A DNA stretch of 39,315 nt from positions 1-39,315 of IMG/VR virus record IMGVR_UViG_3300024528_000001, one strand, 5' to 3'. Source of the stretch: a virus. How positions within the stretch are numbered: position 1 is the first letter of the stretch; each line of letters opens with the position of its first letter. This document shows positions 358 through 39,315 of the stretch, one piece after another. The translations under genes and the position numbers were made by a program. Under the pieces are notes generated by a model, which saw nothing but the letters and a program-made list of their open reading frames with translations, had not been told where the DNA came from and made no database searches.

Positions 358-526
358 AGATACCAGTTATTTGAGTGCAGCTTACAAAGATCTGCCACCA
401 CCGCGTTATGAACGTTTGATACATGGTAATTTTCCTGAAGATCTGATATTTTCTGAAGAGCAAAAAAAACATTATTGTGACATGGGCTTTAAACTCAAAG
501 AATGGGATCATGATAGCAGCAACTGA
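350..526 (+). CDS. Small protein between terS and terL
   Basis: A 58-residue reading frame starts inside the last codons of terS (ATG at 350; terS stop at 355-357) and ends inside the beginning of the large terminase frame. It contains KDLPPPRYERLIHGNFPEDL and has no motif I recognise. Tight overlaps with both neighbours suggest translational coupling. It could be an independent small protein, or the N-terminal section of the large terminase separated from it by a frameshift, since large terminases often begin with a short lead region ahead of the ATPase. Joining to terL would need a +1 shift and I see no obvious slippery site. Confidence 0.55.
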   Translation: MSKDTSYLSAAYKDLPPPRYERLIHGNFPEDLIFSEEQKKHYCDMGFKLKEWDHDSSN

Positions 527-1967
527 CATAAACATAGATATAGAATATAATGACAAGCAGTGGAAAGCTGATATAATCCTAAAGGAAACTCTTGTTTCAA
601 TATTAGGATACGGAGGCGCACGAGGTGGTGGAAAGTCATATTTTGGTAGGACTGAAATAATTACAGACTTACTTGAACATCCAGGTTCAACAGGATTAAT
701 AATAAGAAAGACATTCTCAGAGCTTGAAAGAAATCACATCAAGAAGATTAAAAAAGAATGGCCTAAACTAATACAGAAACAAAAAGAAATCAAATATGAT
801 AAAGAAGAAGAATATACTACACTATATAAATACAAAGAGCAGAAACATTACTTTGAATTCGCTAATGGATCACAACTTGATTTAACTTACTGTGAGAACA
901 TTAAAGACTTAGAAAAGTTACAAGGAGCAGAATACGATTTTATACTATTGGATGAAGCTGAACATTATTCAGAAGTATTCTTTCAAGATATTTGCGCTTG
1001 CCTTAGAACAGTTCTAAATCTTAAGTGTTACATTATAGTTACATTTAATCCTGGTGGAATTGGCCAAAGCTGGTTAAAGAGATTGTTCATTACCAAAAAC
1101 TTTAGATCAAATGAAAAGCCAGAGAACTACGATTTTGTGAAAGCAACAGTGTATGATAATCCTAAGATAGATGAGGCTTACATAGATAGACTCAAAGCTC
1201 TACCAGAGAGAAAACGCAAGGCGTGGCTTGATGGTGACTTTGATAGTTATATCGGACAGTACTTTGATAACTTCGGAGATCATTTAAAGATTGCTCCTTT
1301 TGTTATTCCTCCTCATGAATCTGCTGGCAAGTTGTATGGTTCAATGGATTATGGTTATGGAATTAATGGTTACTCTTCATTTGGTTTGTGGTATAATTGC
1401 AATGGGGTACCTATTAGATTACTCACTTGGTTTAGGCAAGGGTTGAAAGCAACTGAACAGGCTAATGATCTTTATGACACTTTAACATCATTTCATTTCA
1501 CATCAGGAGCTTTGCCGATTGAGGTAGTATGTGATACGAATATGTGGACTGATCCAAGATTAGACGAACATAGTAAGGCGCCTATTGATTATTTCAAAGA
1601 AAAATTCCCATCTAAGGTAAAATGGATACCAGCTAATAAGAATAGAATTAATGGATGGCAAGTAGTGCTTGATTATTTTAGTATTGATCAGTTAACTCAA
1701 AAACCTAAGATGTTATATGTAGATAAATATAATGTAACAATGGAAGAAACTTTTCCTCAATTAGTTAGTGATGATAATAGGCCGGAAGATGTTAAGAAGT
1801 GTGACATAGACCATACTCCGGACGAAGTAAGATACTTTTTGACGTGGTTTGCAGCTAAGATTGCATTGATGGTTAGTGAAGAAGTGAGACAACAGTCTTC
1901 TGCAAGTATAAATAGAGAGATTAACAAGGCTTTAGCGAGTCATCCAAGATCAGTGACAGGGTGGTAA
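510..1967 (+). CDS. terL: Large terminase subunit (packaging ATPase/nuclease)
   Basis: This is the DNA-packaging motor. The open frame reaches back to a GTG at 477 (496 residues); I prefer the ATG at 510 because no good ribosome site precedes the GTG. In numbering from 477, Walker A is GARGGGKS (about 47-54), Walker B is FILLDE (155-160), and VTFNPGG near 188 fits the coupling motif. The RNase H-like nuclease half shows acidic positions at SMDYG (D291), VCDTN (D353) and a late DHTPDEVRY. Length and order of both domains are normal, so the protein looks intact. It follows terS, as in most tailed phages. The C-terminus abuts the next gene, with one base between stop and start at most. Confidence 0.95.
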   Translation: MIAATDINIDIEYNDKQWKADIILKETLVSILGYGGARGGGKSYFGRTEIITDLLEHPGSTGLIIRKTFSELERNHIKKIKKEWPKLIQKQKEIKYDKEEEYTTLYKYKEQKHYFEFANGSQLDLTYCENIKDLEKLQGAEYDFILLDEAEHYSEVFFQDICACLRTVLNLKCYIIVTFNPGGIGQSWLKRLFITKNFRSNEKPENYDFVKATVYDNPKIDEAYIDRLKALPERKRKAWLDGDFDSYIGQYFDNFGDHLKIAPFVIPPHESAGKLYGSMDYGYGINGYSSFGLWYNCNGVPIRLLTWFRQGLKATEQANDLYDTLTSFHFTSGALPIEVVCDTNMWTDPRLDEHSKAPIDYFKEKFPSKVKWIPANKNRINGWQVVLDYFSIDQLTQKPKMLYVDKYNVTMEETFPQLVSDDNRPEDVKKCDIDHTPDEVRYFLTWFAAKIALMVSEEVRQQSSASINREINKALASHPRSVTGW

Positions 1968-2995: not shown

Positions 2996-3591
2996 AGTAT
3001 TTAGCAATCATAATGTTAATAGTTAGCATGGTAAGTGCACAGAAGCAACGCACAGATCGAATGATCAACACCAAGCTAATGAGAACAGATACTGTTTATG
3101 TGACAGGAACAGGCACAGCTTACACACCAATCTTTTGGCAAGCTAAAGCTAATGAGAAAACCATTGAAATAATCATGGATGATACTTCGTCTGCTGGTTA
3201 TGCAAGTGATTCAGCGTCTGTTAGTGTTACGGTTAAGCAGGTGTTTGATATGGGACTTACTAAGAGCGTCAATCTTTATAACTCTGATGCTTATACAAGT
3301 GGATTGTTATATGATTCAGTAACCATTGCAGATTTAGATACGGTTACAACTTGGTTAAGAGAAACAGCTCCTATCGTAAGATATGGAAGGGATACGACAG
3401 GATACTATGCAACTGATGCGTTAGACACTCTCACAACGAGAGAGGCTTCTGCATATGTTCAATTAGTTCCTGATTATTCACCTGGACTTGTTCTATTGAT
3501 TACAGGACTAACAGACAATAAAGTAGGTTCAGCAAATAGAGTTATTATTAGATGGTATCAACAGCAGGGTTTACCTGTATTTGACGATTAA
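2992..3591 (+). CDS. Secreted hypothetical beta-rich protein (signal peptide)
   Basis: The 199-residue protein begins with a clear Sec signal peptide (MKYLAIIMLIVSMVSAQKQ, likely cut after VSA). The mature part is rich in T, S, V, Y and D, has few lysines, and alternates as beta-sandwich proteins do (for example DTVYVTGTGTAYTP and ASVSVTVKQVF). It follows an ATGA overlap and precedes the terminator at 3653. A secreted protein between terminase and portal is unusual; compare the similar signal-bearing protein right after the capsid gene (10024-10527). Function unknown: a virion surface or host-envelope protein is possible. Confidence 0.7.
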   Translation: MKYLAIIMLIVSMVSAQKQRTDRMINTKLMRTDTVYVTGTGTAYTPIFWQAKANEKTIEIIMDDTSSAGYASDSASVSVTVKQVFDMGLTKSVNLYNSDAYTSGLLYDSVTIADLDTVTTWLRETAPIVRYGRDTTGYYATDALDTLTTREASAYVQLVPDYSPGLVLLITGLTDNKVGSANRVIIRWYQQQGLPVFDD

Positions 3592-3652
3592 AAGTTAAGT
3601 AGTAAAACAAAACATAAACGGCGACCTTTGAACTAATTACTCAGAGGTTATG

Positions 3653-3696
3653 AAAAAGGGCAATATAGTGCTATATCACTGTGTTGTCCTTTTTTT
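3653..3696 (+). terminator. Rho-independent terminator
   Basis: The RNA can fold as AAAAGGGCAA-T-ATAGTG, loop CTATAT, CACTGT-G-TTGTCCTTTT, about 16 pairs including two G-U, and runs into seven T. It lies in the only sizeable gap of the early + strand genes (3592-3731). It would stop or reduce transcription from the terminase side before the portal and capsid genes, unless there is antitermination or a second promoter. Confidence 0.8.
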
Positions 3697-3731
3697 GTTG
3701 CCTTATAGTTAAACACTCAAAAGGTTATAAT

Positions 3732-4877
3732 ATGAAAAACAAAATTATACCACTCTTAGCAATGTTAGCTGTAATAGCAGCAATTGCTGCATTCTATATC
3801 TTGAGCAGTATTGACTTGTCAGCGGCAGATAGAACAACATCTAAATTAGGTAATCCTGCAAGTCCTAAGCCACAAGCATACAGAGAGTTTAGGTATGAGA
3901 TGGCTACTAAGTGGAACAAGGGAGTCGATGATTTAGATAGTTTGTACGCAGGTAAGATTGATACTATTAGAGCTGAAGCTGTAGGGATAGGAATAACTAC
4001 GCCAGAAGCTCCTTTTCATTTCTACCAAGATTATTTAGGTATCGCAATGGCAAAGTTTGAGAATCCCAATGCTGGAGCTGCTGCTGTTGTTGGTACAATT
4101 GTACAGATAGTTAATGATGAAGGTTATTGGGGAGCTACAGGTATGACGAATAGTGGTTCTACTATATTGGGTGGAACATTAGCCAACACATATCAGAACT
4201 ACAATCAAGGTTATGGAGATTTCCTTTTTACCAACGATGGAGCTGTTTGTTTTAGATGGTTCTCAGATCCAGCAGATAATCATGACTTTACAGCCTTGAA
4301 CAATGAAATAATGACACTAACAGATTCAGGATATTTAAGCGTGGTTAAAGAAGTTGATGCTTCTTTCATTACGATAGATTCAGCATGGGAAGATTTAAGA
4401 TTTGCTGCTGCTCCTGGACAGGCAAACCCTGTAACAGACAAGCCTGATTTTAACTTTGATGAGATAGGATTTCTTTTCCCTCAAGCTGACTCCACAGAGA
4501 TTGTATATATGGCTGCTCAATTACCTCACGCATATATTGAAGGCTCAGACATTGGGCCACACATACATTGGAAGCAAGATGATGCAGCGGTGGCAACCTG
4601 GGTAATGGCATACAAATGGTTTAATATTGGTGCTGATCCTGACACAGTACCCTGGGACACTATAAGGGCGAGTGTCGGTGAGCAAACTTATGTTAGTGGA
4701 TCATTACATCAGATTACTGAACTTGGCCTATTAGATGGAACTGGAAAAACAAAGTCAAGTTTAATGAGTATTAAAATATGGAGAAACGATAATGATTTGA
4801 CTGGTGATGCATTGTATTACGAATTTGATATACATCACAAAAAAGACAAACTTGGTTCAAGAGAAGAATACGAATAA
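3732..4877 (+). CDS. Phage structural/fibre-like protein with HxHW domain and N-terminal signal/anchor
   Basis: I start at ATG 3732 (381 residues), which places a hydrophobic signal or anchor first (IIPLLAMLAVIAAIAAFYIL). Around residue 80 is GIGITTPEAPFHF, the GIGTTxP-type repeat seen in fibre and other trimeric phage proteins. From about residue 215 comes a domain I recognise from many phage structural proteins: an AWEDLRF opening, a MAAQLPHAYIEGSDIGPHIHW core (HxHW near 277-280) and a closing YYEFDIHHKKDKLGSREE. Function of that domain is not established; it is usually annotated as tail or virion protein. The membrane-targeting start is unexpected for a virion protein. Confidence 0.7.
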   Translation: MKNKIIPLLAMLAVIAAIAAFYILSSIDLSAADRTTSKLGNPASPKPQAYREFRYEMATKWNKGVDDLDSLYAGKIDTIRAEAVGIGITTPEAPFHFYQDYLGIAMAKFENPNAGAAAVVGTIVQIVNDEGYWGATGMTNSGSTILGGTLANTYQNYNQGYGDFLFTNDGAVCFRWFSDPADNHDFTALNNEIMTLTDSGYLSVVKEVDASFITIDSAWEDLRFAAAPGQANPVTDKPDFNFDEIGFLFPQADSTEIVYMAAQLPHAYIEGSDIGPHIHWKQDDAAVATWVMAYKWFNIGADPDTVPWDTIRASVGEQTYVSGSLHQITELGLLDGTGKTKSSLMSIKIWRNDNDLTGDALYYEFDIHHKKDKLGSREEYE

Positions 4878-22708: not shown

Positions 22709-24220
22709 ATGAAAAAGTTATTATTGTTGTTTGTTGTGGTGCTGGTCGCATTTTCAACCCCGCATAAGACAAATAAAAGTTTTGTGTATGGAGTTTATAA
22801 GGTCGGAGACAAAAGGACAGCTTCAGGCAAGGAACATATGGGTGTTAGGGATGGAATGATAATTGAAGTTATAGACCCCGAAGAGTGGCCACAAGGTGAG
22901 CCTGTTATATCAAATTTTATGCAGAAAGCATTTTGCATAATAAAACACAACAGAAGCTGGAAACAAGATCTAAGGGATGCGGCTACAGACTCTGGTAATT
23001 CAAATAACCCACAAAGTTACAAGGTTAAAAGAAAGAAAATTGATTTTAACGAAATAGGTAATACCATTGGTGATACAGCTCTTGACTGGAAATTGAGGTG
23101 CGATTCTTTGGTTATGATTGACGGTACCAATTTTGACAAAAAGATTTTAAAAAACACTGCTGTAATAGACAGGCCACTTAATTATATTTGCTATGACTAC
23201 AACGCTATCACTTCAGGGAGCGCCACCGTTGGGAGTGGTGGGACTTATGCAACATTCGCAATAGCGTTGGCAGATTTAGGAAACCTAACTGGAGATGTAA
23301 CTTTTACACAAATTACTGATGCGACAGAAACGGCAACGGCTGGAATATCAGAGGATTTAGGAGGCTACACGCTTACAATAACATCCAGCACAGATCATCA
23401 GGGAAGTTATAATAATGGTCTCTTGCTTACAATGCAACACAACGTTCACATGTTTCTTTTGGGCCAAGAAGGAAATGGTGTAGTTGATTTGTGTTGTCTC
23501 AAAACGATTAGAACTGTTGCGCCTAATTCATCATCAAGAGCGTTTGTATTAGCTGCAAATATTTCGGCCGGAGTCCAAACAATACGCATATACAATAATA
23601 TTCATAATGGCGACCAAGGGGGACACATGTTCTCAAGCACCGACGACACACCAACCATTTACATGTATGACAATATTAGTTTGGCAGGATATTCGGGGGT
23701 AAGTGTCGATCTTAATGACGGAAATGCTAACTCTGTTTATGAAAACAATTCTTTTTATAACCATACTGTCGCAGGAATAAAAGCGAATGATGGCGCTGGG
23801 GCTTTTGGGGTTTATAGAAATAATATTTGCATCGACAATTTTGCAGACTTCTCTGGTATAAGTGCAGGAGCTACAGGGGTAAACAATATTTCTGGAGATG
23901 CGACAGCGGACGATGGTGGATGGTCAACAGGCTCTAATAACTTAACAGGACTTTCAGCTTCTTCGCAATGGGTTAGTGTAGTTGTTAGCGATGGAGACAG
24001 TTATTTGAAACCTGTCGCCAATTCTTCTGCGGCTTTATCGGGGACAACCCCATCCTATGCAACAACTTTGATTAATGGGGTTGTATGGACTTCGGAAATA
24101 GGTGCTAAAAGTAAAGTTGTCTCAAGCTCAAACAAAAACTTTTCAAAATACAGTAACCCAACATACAAAAATGCAATATATAAAAATGATGATTATAAGA
24201 AGTTTATATACAACAAGTAG
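22709..24220 (+). CDS. Beta-helix tailspike-like protein with signal peptide
   Basis: The 503-residue protein begins with a Sec signal (MKKLLLLFVVVLVAFSTPHK). After an N-terminal domain of about 140 residues comes NYICYDYNAITSGSATVGSG and GGTYATFAIALADLG, the opening seen in parallel beta-helix adsorption proteins. Repeats with N/Y-rich turns follow (IRIYNNIHNGDQGG, TIYMYDNISLAGYSG, VYENNSFYNHT, VYRNNICIDNF), as in right-handed beta-helix rungs. The tail end (KYSNPTYKNAIYKNDDYKK) is basic. It is the last + strand gene; a hairpin overlaps its stop. Tailspike or receptor-binding function is inferred; the export signal is odd. Confidence 0.7.
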   Translation: MKKLLLLFVVVLVAFSTPHKTNKSFVYGVYKVGDKRTASGKEHMGVRDGMIIEVIDPEEWPQGEPVISNFMQKAFCIIKHNRSWKQDLRDAATDSGNSNNPQSYKVKRKKIDFNEIGNTIGDTALDWKLRCDSLVMIDGTNFDKKILKNTAVIDRPLNYICYDYNAITSGSATVGSGGTYATFAIALADLGNLTGDVTFTQITDATETATAGISEDLGGYTLTITSSTDHQGSYNNGLLLTMQHNVHMFLLGQEGNGVVDLCCLKTIRTVAPNSSSRAFVLAANISAGVQTIRIYNNIHNGDQGGHMFSSTDDTPTIYMYDNISLAGYSGVSVDLNDGNANSVYENNSFYNHTVAGIKANDGAGAFGVYRNNICIDNFADFSGISAGATGVNNISGDATADDGGWSTGSNNLTGLSASSQWVSVVVSDGDSYLKPVANSSAALSGTTPSYATTLINGVVWTSEIGAKSKVVSSSNKNFSKYSNPTYKNAIYKNDDYKKFIYNK

Positions 24221-24240
24221 CACTTAGTTACTTGTTGTAT
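24208..24240. terminator. Hairpin between convergent operons
   Basis: ATACAACAAGTA, a nine-base loop, and TACTTGTTGTAT make 12 perfect pairs. It spans the stop of the last + strand gene and the stop of the last - strand gene (24228), exactly where the two transcription units meet. T-richness after it is moderate on the + side (TGCTTTAAGTTGTTTT). It likely ends late transcription and may act in both directions. Confidence 0.65.
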
Positions 24241-24356
24241 TGCTTTAAGTTGTTTTGGCTTTTAATTATTTTAATATATTTATAGGAAGTTAATCCAGAT
24301 AGTAAAATAAGCATTAAACAAATTGTAAGTAATATGCCTTTCAGTATTGTTTTCAT
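24228..24356 (-). CDS. Tiny membrane protein, 42 aa
   Basis: This gene starts at 24356 with an ATGA overlap with the stop of the zinc-ribbon gene upstream. The product has one hydrophobic segment (ILLTICLMLILLSGLTSY) and a basic, polar tail (KYIKIIKSQNNLKQYNK). It is the last gene of the - strand and its stop lies in the terminator hairpin. The overlap and clean membrane topology support it; function unknown. Confidence 0.6.
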   Translation of the reverse strand: MKTILKGILLTICLMLILLSGLTSYKYIKIIKSQNNLKQYNK

Positions 24357-25614: not shown

Positions 25615-25656
25615 TCTGGCCTCCTTTTTTAAATGATTTATTTTTGTTATATTCTA

Positions 25657-25685
25657 AGTATACTAAATAAAATTAAGAAAGTCAA
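25657..25685 (-). promoter_or_regulatory. Early promoter P1 (sigma70-like)
   Basis: On the - strand: TTGACT (25685-25680), 17-base spacer, TATACT (25662-25657), spacer ending TTTAG. An AT-rich upstream segment, GTAAAATAGTTG just before the -35 box, is shared with P2 and P3. It would drive the 25614-24228 genes. Confidence 0.85.
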
Positions 25686-25699
25686 CAACTATTTTACTT

Positions 25700-25849
25700 T
25701 TATTTTACAACAATATTATAATTCGAATCTGCAACATCACAATAAGAGTGCCTGGACTGCTCAAGCTCTTGATAGTCGTCTATTTCTTCGTGTGCTTTTT
25801 TAGCTTTCTTTTCTATTCTTTCCACAACTTTTTCAGCATATGTTTTCAT
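25700..25849 (-). CDS. Small hypothetical protein, 49 aa
   Basis: ATG at 25849 is preceded by GAGGT and lies two bases after the previous stop. The product (MKTYAEKVVERIEKKAKKAH, then EEIDDYQELEQSRHS) is a highly charged helix. It is the last gene of the replication operon, and its 3' end runs into the upstream part of P1. No family recognised. Confidence 0.55.
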   Translation of the reverse strand: MKTYAEKVVERIEKKAKKAHEEIDDYQELEQSRHSYCDVADSNYNIVVK

Positions 25850-32360: not shown

Positions 32361-32954
32361 TTATTCGTTTGGCCCTGGTTCTGGCAGCCTGTACGTTCCT
32401 AATAGCATTTCTTCTATCTTCCTTGAAACTTTATACTTTTTACGGATATCTTTTATTGAGCCGCCTTTACTAATATATTCTTTCGCCTTGTTGAAGTTGG
32501 GCGTATCTTCATTTAGCCAAGGCTTGTTATCATCTTTTTTCTTTTGGGCTTGCTTCTTGCCTTGTGGCTTTTGGGCGTCAAAGTCTAAATCATTATTAAC
32601 AATACTAAAAGTCGTTTGCTTTAAATATCTCTCTGTAAAAGTCATACAGCCGCCCATTTGTTGACTTGCGTTGGTGGCTGTGATTGTAGGCATTTCTGTA
32701 GCTGCTACAAATACAGCAAAATCTTTAATATCATCCAAGTTATAAACTGTTAGTTGGCCAAACAATCCATTTAAATCTCTAACAAGCTCAAACTTAACAA
32801 AAAGATTTTCATTAGTACACGCCTCATAAACCAGCTTGTCTACTTGTTCAGGCGTATAGTAATAATACTCAGAGTAACTATTATACCCTAACTTTTGAAG
32901 ATCAGAGGCTTTAATAGCTACTCTGCAATTTTGTATTTTTTGATATACATTCAT
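32361..32954 (-). CDS. erf: ERF-family single-strand annealing protein
   Basis: The 197-residue protein has the ERF signature: a front part with YSEYYYYTPEQVDKLVYEA and the ATNASQQMGGCMTFTERYL segment, followed by FSIVNNDLDFD, matching the family's 'sQxxGxxxTYxxRYxL...xDxD'. A lysine-rich linker and C-terminal helices (KEYISKGGSIKDIRKKYKVS) follow. ERF proteins anneal homologous single strands and can recircularise P22-type genomes, which fits a circularly permuted genome. Its ATG overlaps the Gp157-like stop (TAATG). Confidence 0.85.
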   Translation of the reverse strand: MNVYQKIQNCRVAIKASDLQKLGYNSYSEYYYYTPEQVDKLVYEACTNENLFVKFELVRDLNGLFGQLTVYNLDDIKDFAVFVAATEMPTITATNASQQMGGCMTFTERYLKQTTFSIVNNDLDFDAQKPQGKKQAQKKKDDNKPWLNEDTPNFNKAKEYISKGGSIKDIRKKYKVSRKIEEMLLGTYRLPEPGPNE

Positions 32955-34802: not shown

Positions 34803-35053
34803 AATTTACTCCTTTTAGTTTAACATTGTATATGTTCGGGTCTAATGGGAATGGTCGCCAATATAAAATGTCTTCCCAAGTGCGTTGTCTTTCGCTCCAA
34901 GATTCACCATCAAAAGAGCTTACATCTTTTAGGTATATACCATCTTCTTTATTTTTATTGTTTCAACACGTTAGTTTAAAACTATGCACTTTCAGTGCAA
35001 GACTTTCAGTTGTATCATATTTTCATATTTATCAAAAATTGGTTGATATTGTC

Positions 35054-35078
35054 ATTCCCGAATGCATTTGTCGGGAAT
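35054..35078. repeat. REP-like palindrome A in the MITE
   Basis: ATTCCCGA, nine-base loop, TCGGGAAT, eight perfect pairs. With the preceding GTC it reads GTCATTCCCG, the start of intergenic palindromes found in many bacterial chromosomes, typically paired with a second one nearby. Confidence 0.75.
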
Positions 35079-35109
35079 TCAGGTTTTTGAATGATTTTTA
35101 AAAGAATGG

Positions 35110-35147
35110 ATTCCGGCCTAAAAACATACCGGAATGATTTTTTTTCT
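35110..35147 (+). terminator. REP-like palindrome B with T-run, terminator-like
   Basis: ATTCCGG, 12-base loop, CCGGAAT, then GATTTTTTTTC. The outer CCGGAATGA mirrors TCATTCCCG of palindrome A, so A and B form one bipartite REP-like element (about 35051-35138). On the + strand it has the form of an intrinsic terminator. Confidence 0.6.
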
Positions 35148-35323
35148 TTAAATTGTAAATACAGGGTAGTTAACATACAAATGAAAAACTTTCAGTTTTA
35201 ATTTTATTAAACCTATGTACTTCCAGTGCATAGTGGTTTAGTTTTAACACAAACGATTACAGCTTCATCAATATGACGGTTTTTTGTTGATGGTAATTCA
35301 TTTCTGATATCTGTCCACATAAT

Positions 35324-36689: not shown

Positions 36690-36909
36690 CTCTATCTTTT
36701 TCCTCAATTTTGCAAACATTTACAACCCTTTCACCCGCCCTCTTGGCTTGTAATTGCATTATGCCCGATTCTGCTGCAAAATAACTATCAAAGTACATAA
36801 AATCATGCTTGCTTTGGTAATCGCGCTCCCATACAATCTCTTTAGGCTGCAAAACTTCATTATTGTGCCACACTTGGAATTTCCCATTAGCATATTCTCT
36901 TATTTCCAT
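36679..36909 (-). CDS. Hypothetical protein, 76 aa
   Basis: The protein (MEIREYANGKFQVWHNNEVL, then MYFDSYFAAESGIMQLQAKR) has a beta-rich front and helical back, with a charged end. AAAGGAAAA precedes the ATG, which overlaps the previous gene. No family recognised. Confidence 0.55.
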   Translation of the reverse strand: MEIREYANGKFQVWHNNEVLQPKEIVWERDYQSKHDFMYFDSYFAAESGIMQLQAKRAGERVVNVCKIEEKDRDEK

Positions 36910-37181
36910 TTCTTTTCCTTTCCTAAAATAACAGGAGCCTTATCACTCCTATAATCATTACCATCAATTCCTTTTAAATAATAAGTACCACCTGACTTGA
37001 TCCAGACATTACATTTAATAGTATCTACTTCGTATAATAATTCATGCTCTCTAAATATTACAGCAGTTTCTATTGTGTTTGTGTCTATGTCACAGGCATT
37101 AGTATTGTAAAACAAAAGTACTGACAATATTAATAATGCAATAGCACCTACAGTTCTTACAAGCTGTATAATATTACTCAC
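36900..37181 (-). CDS. Signal-anchored hypothetical protein, 93 aa
   Basis: A hydrophobic start (LVRTVGAIALLILSVLLFY) is followed by an outer beta-rich part (TIETAVIFREHELLYEVDTI, then SGGTYYLKGIDGNDY). The start follows the upstream stop without a gap. Possibly a periplasmic domain tethered to the inner membrane. Function unknown. Confidence 0.55.
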   Translation of the reverse strand: MSNIIQLVRTVGAIALLILSVLLFYNTNACDIDTNTIETAVIFREHELLYEVDTIKCNVWIKSGGTYYLKGIDGNDYRSDKAPVILGKEKKWK

Positions 37182-37502
37182 CTATTCCTCCTTCTTAAAA
37201 GCTTTTAATTTAGACACAGGAGTATACTCTAATTTAATATCTAAATACTCTGCAATAGCATCTATATGCTCTTTTGGGTTATAAGGAGGTGCAGACACAC
37301 TTACATTTGCAGTACCTTCTCGATAACTATGATCATTACAAATGCCAGCGCTTTTTAATTTTATTTCAATACATTCTATACTAGTTTTTAAATACCTGTT
37401 CTCGCATTCAAGACTATTAATCATCTTTTCTAATTCTTGAACAATTTTTTTATTCTTCCAAAATGAAACATCTTTTTCAGCAGCTTTTGCCATATTAAAC
37501 AT
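37182..37502 (-). CDS. Coiled-coil hypothetical protein, 106 aa
   Basis: ATG 37502 has GGGAGG ahead; the frame is open to 37577. The front half is a coiled coil (AAEKDVSFWKNKKIVQELEK, then LKTSIECIEIKLKSAG), the back half ends with a short YLDIKLEYTPVSKLKAFKKE. Function unknown. Confidence 0.55.
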   Translation of the reverse strand: MFNMAKAAEKDVSFWKNKKIVQELEKMINSLECENRYLKTSIECIEIKLKSAGICNDHSYREGTANVSVSAPPYNPKEHIDAIAEYLDIKLEYTPVSKLKAFKKEE

Positions 37503-37515
37503 CTTATTCCTCCCT

Positions 37516-37845
37516 TTAATCATGAATGTTGCCAAGTAACAATTCAAGAGTATTGTAAAGTGTAGATACTGCCACATCCTTGTACTGATGATTACAAATT
37601 TCTTTTCTTTGTGACGACGCAGTTCCCCCTATAAAATTTCTAATCTCTATTGCTTGAGATTCTTTCAAGATGACTTTTACATCACGATCAACTTTTGGTG
37701 TTACAAATTCAGCTTTCATACTTTTCTCCTTGTTTAATTGTTTTTCAATTTCCATTTTTTCTTTCATTCTTCGTATTCTTTGCTCTGCCATTTCTTTTTC
37801 TATTTTAATTAATTTTTGCAATGCATGTGCAGTTACTGTAAACAT
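37516..37845 (-). CDS. Hypothetical protein, 109 aa
   Basis: GAGGAGG precedes the ATG, which follows the upstream stop at once. A long basic helix (KLIKIEKEMAEQRIRRMKEK) is followed by VILKESQAIEIRNFIGGTA. No family recognised; the lysine/arginine-rich helix could bind nucleic acid. Confidence 0.55.
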   Translation of the reverse strand: MFTVTAHALQKLIKIEKEMAEQRIRRMKEKMEIEKQLNKEKSMKAEFVTPKVDRDVKVILKESQAIEIRNFIGGTASSQRKEICNHQYKDVAVSTLYNTLELLLGNIHD

Positions 37846-38356: not shown

Positions 38357-38578
38357 TTATTTCCCCTCTCGCCGATACTCTATATCCACCGGACAATTTT
38401 CTATTATTCTAACGATATTACCTTTCGAGTCATATGCTGTATATGCGCTATAAACACTATCTTTGTAATCCTCGGAGTAATCTTTTATTTTAACAACACC
38501 ATCAACACCAACCTCACAACACGATGTTCCAAGAATACACACAACTGTTATTTTTTTAATTACCATACCATCAATCAT
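38357..38578 (-). CDS. Possible lipoprotein, first gene of the P3 operon
   Basis: ATG 38578 has GGAGG at five bases; the 73-residue product begins MIDGMVIKKITVVCILGTSC, a weak lipoprotein or export signal, followed by an acidic mature part (DGVVKIKDYSEDYKDSVYSA). Only 12 genes later is another lipoprotein of the early strand. After its stop, a second frame stays open for 22 codons in clear coding style (see findings). Function unknown. Confidence 0.55.
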   Translation of the reverse strand: MIDGMVIKKITVVCILGTSCCEVGVDGVVKIKDYSEDYKDSVYSAYTAYDSKGNIVRIIENCPVDIEYRREGK

Positions 38579-38626
38579 CTAATCCTCCAACTCCTTTTTT
38601 AAATTATTAATTTTACCTACACACAT

Positions 38627-38655
38627 AGTATACTAAATAACCCAAAACATGTCAA
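38627..38655 (-). promoter_or_regulatory. Early promoter P3 (sigma70-like)
   Basis: On the - strand TTGACA (38655-38650, consensus), 17 bases, TATACT (38632-38627), with GTAAAATAGTTG upstream as in P1. It faces away from the late promoter at 38726, so 38579-38760 is the divergent control region of the phage. No coding frame lies in this stretch. Confidence 0.85.
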
Positions 38656-38725
38656 CAACTATTTTACATTTATTTTATTTATTTTTTACAATGCCCTATT
38701 TTACTACGTCTTAGAAAAAAAACTA

Positions 38726-38754
38726 TTGACAATAACTTTGGAATTGATTATCTT
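38726..38754 (+). promoter_or_regulatory. Promoter for the terminase / late operon (sigma70-like)
   Basis: TTGACA (38726-38731), 17 bases, TATCTT (38749-38754). The upstream box of P1-P3 is absent, so it is probably controlled differently from the early strand. Transcription would begin near 38761, more than 300 bases ahead of terS. Confidence 0.7.
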
Positions 38755-38798
38755 ATGGTTATGATTTTGTTTTTTTGTTTTTGATTAGATGTTGAGAT

Positions 38799-39062
38799 AG
38801 AGCGCATAGATTAATTCTGTGTGCTCTAATTTAAAGTTAGCTTTGAGCAATCTGTGCAAGGGAAATCCTTAATGTATACTACCGAGATATCGAAAGTATG
38901 AAAACAACTTTAAGGATGAAGTTGCACAGAGTCCTCAAAGCTAAAGACAAGAGTTGGAGAGGCCTTGATAGTTGATCGCCTTGGACAAACAGCCCTGTGT
39001 CTGTATGGGCGTAATTTATGAATCTCTGAGGCAGGGAATGAGATTCTTCAAGACTTTTAAAG
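38799..39062 (+). ncRNA. Structured leader RNA upstream of terS
   Basis: No gene fits this stretch, but base pairing is dense. (1) 38799-38810 with 38816-38827: 12 pairs, five-base loop. (2) A nested rod: TTAGCTTTGAG 38837-38847 with 38934-38944 (11 pairs), TCTGTGCAA 38851-38859 with 38922-38930 (9), ATCCTTAA 38865-38872 with 38910-38917 (8), ATACT 38876-38880 with 38895-38899, separated by symmetric 3x3 and purine-rich 5x4 internal loops. (3) AGGC/GCCT 38960-38981. (4) GCCC/GGGC 38992-39010. (5) GAATCTC/GAGATTC 39020-39046. No family known to me matches. It could be an antitermination leader, packaging RNA or cis-regulator. Confidence 0.7.
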
Positions 39063-39083
39063 CAAATAGCAACAGGGGATAGT

Positions 39084-39315
39084 ATGCCGAGCAACGGAAG
39101 ACCAACTAAATACAACAAAAACATTCCAGACAAAGTATATAAGTTCTGCCTATTAGGTGCTACAGATGAAGAGATGTCCGATCTCCTTGATATAACTATA
39201 GATACGTTTTATCGGTGGAAGAAAGTTCATAAGCCTTTTTCTGAGGCACTCTTAGAGGGAAAGGAAGTTGCAGATTCAAACATCGCTAAAAGCCTATACC
39301 AGAGAGCAAAAGGGT
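39084..39315 (+). CDS. terS: Small terminase subunit, N-terminal part (continues at base 1)
   Basis: ATG 39084 follows CAGGGGATAGT. The frame runs in phase into the 127-base overlap (39189 = base 1) and continues to the stop at 355-357, 153 residues in all. The N-terminus (MPSNGRPTKYNKNIPDKVYK) is basic and leads into a helix-turn-helix-like segment, the DNA-recognition part of small terminases. It is cut only by the arbitrary end of the window, not broken. Confidence 0.85.
   Translation, partial: MPSNGRPTKYNKNIPDKVYKFCLLGATDEEMSDLLDITIDTFYRWKKVHKPFSEALLEGKEVADSNIAKSLYQRAKG
39189..39315. repeat. Terminal direct repeat, copy 2
   Basis: Identical to 1-127; see that entry. It shows that the sequence closes into a circle within terS. 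Confidence 0.95.

Follow-up and report, generated by a model that had tools for sequence, protein, structure and literature searches.

A very stable orphan leader structure between a late promoter-like site and terS in an uncultured phage

The leader that separates a late promoter-like site from terS in this phage (38755-39083, + strand) harbors a genuine and very stable orphan structure, formed by a hairpin (P1) and an adjoining rod, which is probably a control element for late genes. A strongly structured leader between promoter and terS that has no match in Rfam is supported, while its standing as a new RNA family is not established. As a tentative first choice among possible functions, P1 and the rod may constitute a cis-acting leader RNA that assists polymerase passage through the late operon in the manner of put and canT.

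The analysis covered a whole 39,315-base virus record (the window), whose ends share a 127-base overlap, indicating a circular assembly. terS (small terminase, PHROG 309) occupies 39084..39315 and continues at 1-357 via the 127-bp terminal overlap, and terL (large terminase) follows at 477..1967, both on the + strand. Late genes extend along the + strand up to ~24220, and early genes, including those for a DnaB-like helicase, Erf- and Gam-like proteins and a NinB-like protein, lie on the - strand beginning at 38578; the sign of the G+C skew switches near 24 kb, where the two blocks meet. At this convergence a 14-pair hairpin (24207-24241) lies directly past the last late gene, with no clear T run. 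The late promoter posited ahead of the leader in the earlier note was recovered as a sigma-70-like site, TTGACA-17-TATCTT (38726..38754, + strand), assigned by consensus match only (10/12). An early promoter-like site, TTGACA-17-TATACT (38627..38655, - strand; 11/12 by consensus match), diverges from it, placing the leader between the late promoter-like site and terS and divergent from the early operon. The early promoter/leader region exists in two - strand copies (25621-25707 and 38591-38677) that are 79% identical. Elsewhere in the early region, 34950-35240 contains little convincing coding sequence; CTTTCAGT motifs recur in it, and a terminator-like hairpin lies on its + strand (35102-35150). 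The stretch is possibly an origin, a small RNA or an attachment site.

Folding of the complete leader yielded -100.6 kcal/mol, compared with -76.7 for shuffled sequences (z -4.85), and the excess stability proved to be confined to two adjoining elements, P1 and the rod. Their core (38797-38945), which begins ~35 nt past the likely transcription start, reached z -11.7, a value equaled by 0 of 200 shuffles, bearing out the proposal that the nested stems exceed chance. When 3,134 windows of 150 nt from both strands of the genome were compared after correction for composition, the + strand window 38801-38950 ranked first with a residual of -34 kcal/mol; the runners-up, at about -25 to -26, comprised a stretch of the Erf-like gene, the - strand version of this leader and the 3551-3700 terminator. 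Pair probabilities were 0.9-1.0 across P1 and nearly all main helices of the rod, falling to 0.47-0.74 only at the rod base. The remaining leader (38946..39083), which carries the GGGG ribosome site of terS (39075-39078), is no more structured than shuffled sequence (z +1.3; 915 of 1000 shuffles as good), and the three additional hairpins have no excess stability. The description of a densely folded leader therefore holds for its core, while the other ~140 nt contribute nothing. The genome's second most structured stretch is on the - strand at 32801-32950 (z -6.3), where a 14-pair hairpin overlies the start of the Erf-like coding sequence.

P1 (38798..38828) is a hairpin closed by the loop UUAAU (38811-38815), with 13 pairs rather than the 12 originally counted, and alone scores z -6.2 against shuffles. 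Two of its 13 pairs are G-U, which exist in + strand RNA only; in - strand RNA both become A-C breaks. The rod (38837..38944), identified by folding, inverted-repeat search and pair probabilities, lies where the earlier note had placed it and consists of four helices of 11 (38837-38847/38934-38944), 9 (38851-38859/38922-38930), 8 (38865-38872/38910-38917) and 5 pairs (38876-38880/38895-38899). Its internal loops had been described as small and symmetric, which is true of the first (3x3, 38848-38850/38931-38933) and not of the second (5x4, 38860-38864/38918-38921), beyond which the structure is strongly asymmetric. Across the 39 kb window the rod is the sole two-armed inverted repeat of at least 16 nt with arms at most 120 nt apart; the search's two further matches are overlapping palindromes.

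The leader had been described as carrying no gene, and none of its frames matched a conserved protein family. It contains short open frames (38872-38901, 38898-38975 and a ~37-codon frame that ends at 39082), as expected by chance at such G+C content. The proposed Rfam search matched no family at gathering score in the whole window, and relaxing the cutoff to E = 10 brought up no relevant family.

Relatives of the leader were sought through its neighboring genes. Searches of viral contigs with TerL, the portal, the major capsid protein and a further virion protein returned no relatives; a TerL alignment search yielded relatives of at most 37% identity, and a degenerate TerL pattern a single distant match. 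terS has 68 relatives in viral contigs (best 62% identity), of whose loci three carry a distant TerL match and none matches the other proteins tested, suggesting that terS moves between phages. Regions upstream of these 68 relatives displayed no BLAST or covariance-model similarity to the leader, a single-sequence covariance model found nothing beyond chance in 191 loci (E 0.9 or worse), and no leader homologue was found in phage and plasmid collections or IMG/VR. A rod-sequence pattern gave 38 matches, none convincingly homologous to the leader, two of which fall within a terS reading frame. In another phage, whose terS is 51% identical, a 155-nt imperfect inverted repeat (locus L011, 2375-2530; z -7.4) lies directly between a promoter-like site and terS and is unrelated in sequence to the present leader. 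Two divergent, nearly identical sigma-70 promoters make up the long inverted repeat that precedes the terminase genes at locus L150 (2428-2558). Given these two repeats, position upstream of terS alone proves nothing.

The late operon contains one strong intrinsic-terminator-like hairpin (3653..3692, + strand), situated ~4 kb downstream of the leader between the open reading frames ending at 3591 and starting at 3732. It comprises 16 pairs (dG -20.3) with a T-rich tail, and a terminator of this strength occurred in only 1 of 60 shuffled late regions. The surrounding sequence (3653-3700) is A-rich before the hairpin and T-rich after it, so that the element is possibly bidirectional. Portal, capsid and tail genes lie beyond the hairpin, and no promoter-like site was present between 3692 and 4250 among the sites listed. 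Among the early proteins scanned, none was recognisable as Q, N or NusG-like; for three of them (36900-37842) the comparison was with Pfam only. The early operon has a short leader with no excess structure and no such terminator hairpin outside coding sequence. The predicted internal terminator, the stretch free of listed promoters to 4250, the lack of a recognised antiterminator protein and the precedent of RNA-only antiterminators together place antitermination in cis first among the explanations, narrowly ahead of RNase III processing or stabilization and, third, a DNA-level element.

According to this proposal, P1 and the rod would form once polymerase exits the late promoter, giving the ~25 kb late transcript a cis-acting leader RNA at its 5' terminus; the folded leader would then act on the elongating polymerase, permitting read-through of 3653-3692 so that the capsid and tail genes are reached. 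The mode of action would resemble that of put in HK022 and canT in Tn916. The excess stability of the fold, the promoter-like site ahead of it, the terminator-like hairpin within the operon and the failure to recognise an antiterminator protein are observed; we infer that transcription starts at the late promoter, that the RNA acts in cis and contacts polymerase, and that antitermination occurs. Against antitermination stand the failure to find relatives, the lack of sequence resemblance to put and the rod's equally exceptional score on the other strand. The terminator at 3653-3692 is itself a prediction and could alternatively set gene ratios, and antiterminator proteins can lack recognisable family membership. 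Doubtful, and rated below antitermination as such, is the view that the leader represents a new class of RNA-only processive antiterminators, unrelated in sequence to those known, that the phage uses on its late operon instead of its early operons and in place of a Q-type protein.

The second-ranked explanation, also tentative, is that the fold governs mRNA processing or stability with no antitermination: host RNase III would cut the rod, or P1 and the rod would shield the 5' end from degradation, and the lifetime of the late mRNA would be fixed in this way. Phages are well known to have RNase III sites and 5' stabilizing hairpins, and the 11+9+8-pair helix with small internal loops near the 5' end belongs to the general type of RNase III substrate. 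Such a role requires no phage protein, and the absence of sequence conservation fits it; several early intergenic stretches of T7 (putative sites), however, folded into short hairpins with no long looped rod.

Slightly less probable is a DNA-level role, in which a protein such as TerS (for packaging) or a regulator acting where the early and late regions meet would bind the rod as a double-stranded inverted repeat, its folding as RNA being incidental. The rod by itself could indeed be a DNA-level inverted repeat, since its main helices are wholly Watson-Crick, with no G-U pairs, and for this reason it is equally exceptional on the two strands (z -8.5 on + and -9.1 on -). It also adjoins terS, and the long inverted repeat in the same place at L150 is simply two divergent promoters. 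On the other hand, no consensus promoter lies inside the rod among the sites listed, its mismatches are grouped in two loops rather than scattered, and the neighboring P1 is continuously paired in + strand RNA only. The G-U positions in P1 and this clustering of rod mismatches in loops provide moderate evidence favoring + strand RNA; from the folding itself, nothing beyond P1 and the + strand window's larger composition-corrected residual points to that strand.

Two further explanations appear improbable, to a similar degree. A translational or attenuation switch for terS would have the ribosome site pair with 38982-38998, or the short upstream frames act. CCCUGU (38993-38998) does pair with ACAGGG (39072-39077) at a probability of ~0.7-0.9 once the folded sequence extends 27 nt into terS, and the short frames overlap, but the region shows no structural excess over shuffled sequence (z +0.3 to +0.6), and the ribosome-site pairing of terS ranks 11th of 51 starts, unremarkable beside the genome's other genes; this candidate was rejected. 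A trans-acting small RNA freed from the leader and regulating host or early genes would be in keeping with the promoter and the compact, stable core, but no terminator separates the core from terS and no homologues were found. A packaging RNA of the phi29 pRNA kind, a comparison raised in the earlier note, is very improbable: beyond proximity to packaging genes nothing speaks for it, the Rfam covariance model is unmatched, and packaging is driven by an ordinary TerS/TerL pair rather than a phi29-type system.

To our knowledge, RNA-only antiterminators are known from few systems, namely put, EAR and canT. The late leader system of phage lambda, 6S RNA with Q, likewise places an untranslated leader after a late promoter, but here no Q protein was recognised and the leader has no terminator. 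Phage RNase III sites and 5' stabilizing hairpins share with the present leader long paired stems with internal loops. put consists of two adjacent stem-loops, needs no dedicated protein and acts over at least 10 kb (PMC9378689); in HK022, put suppresses termination by way of the beta' subunit's zinc-binding domain. Like putL and putR, P1 and the rod form two adjacent stem-loops in the nascent leader after the promoter of a long phage operon, with no dedicated protein evident, so that the likeness drawn in the earlier note extends to position and general shape. It does not extend to sequence or size: put measures ~70 nt with stem-loops ~1 nt apart and serves early operons, whereas the present core measures ~150 nt with 8 nt between its elements and stands on a late operon. 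The 5' hairpin of put, AGACG-N7-CGUCU, is present in HK022 and absent from the whole window even with one mismatch; by sequence and by its length, twice that of put, the leader was rejected as a put element. canT is a longer RNA with the same RNA-only antitermination in Tn916 (PMC11658703). Likened here by description, this 452-nt region of an integrative element shares with the present case a long structured leader RNA, a long operon with internal terminators and RNA-only action in cis (PMC11658703); for canT-type read-through the present leader has a strong terminator-like hairpin downstream, and its antitermination function is predicted. If true, a late-operon RNA antiterminator in an uncultured phage lineage would suggest that sequence searches underestimate how common such RNAs are. 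Should its role be limited to processing or stabilizing mRNA, this would still be a clear example of a phage leader whose strong structure escapes family libraries.
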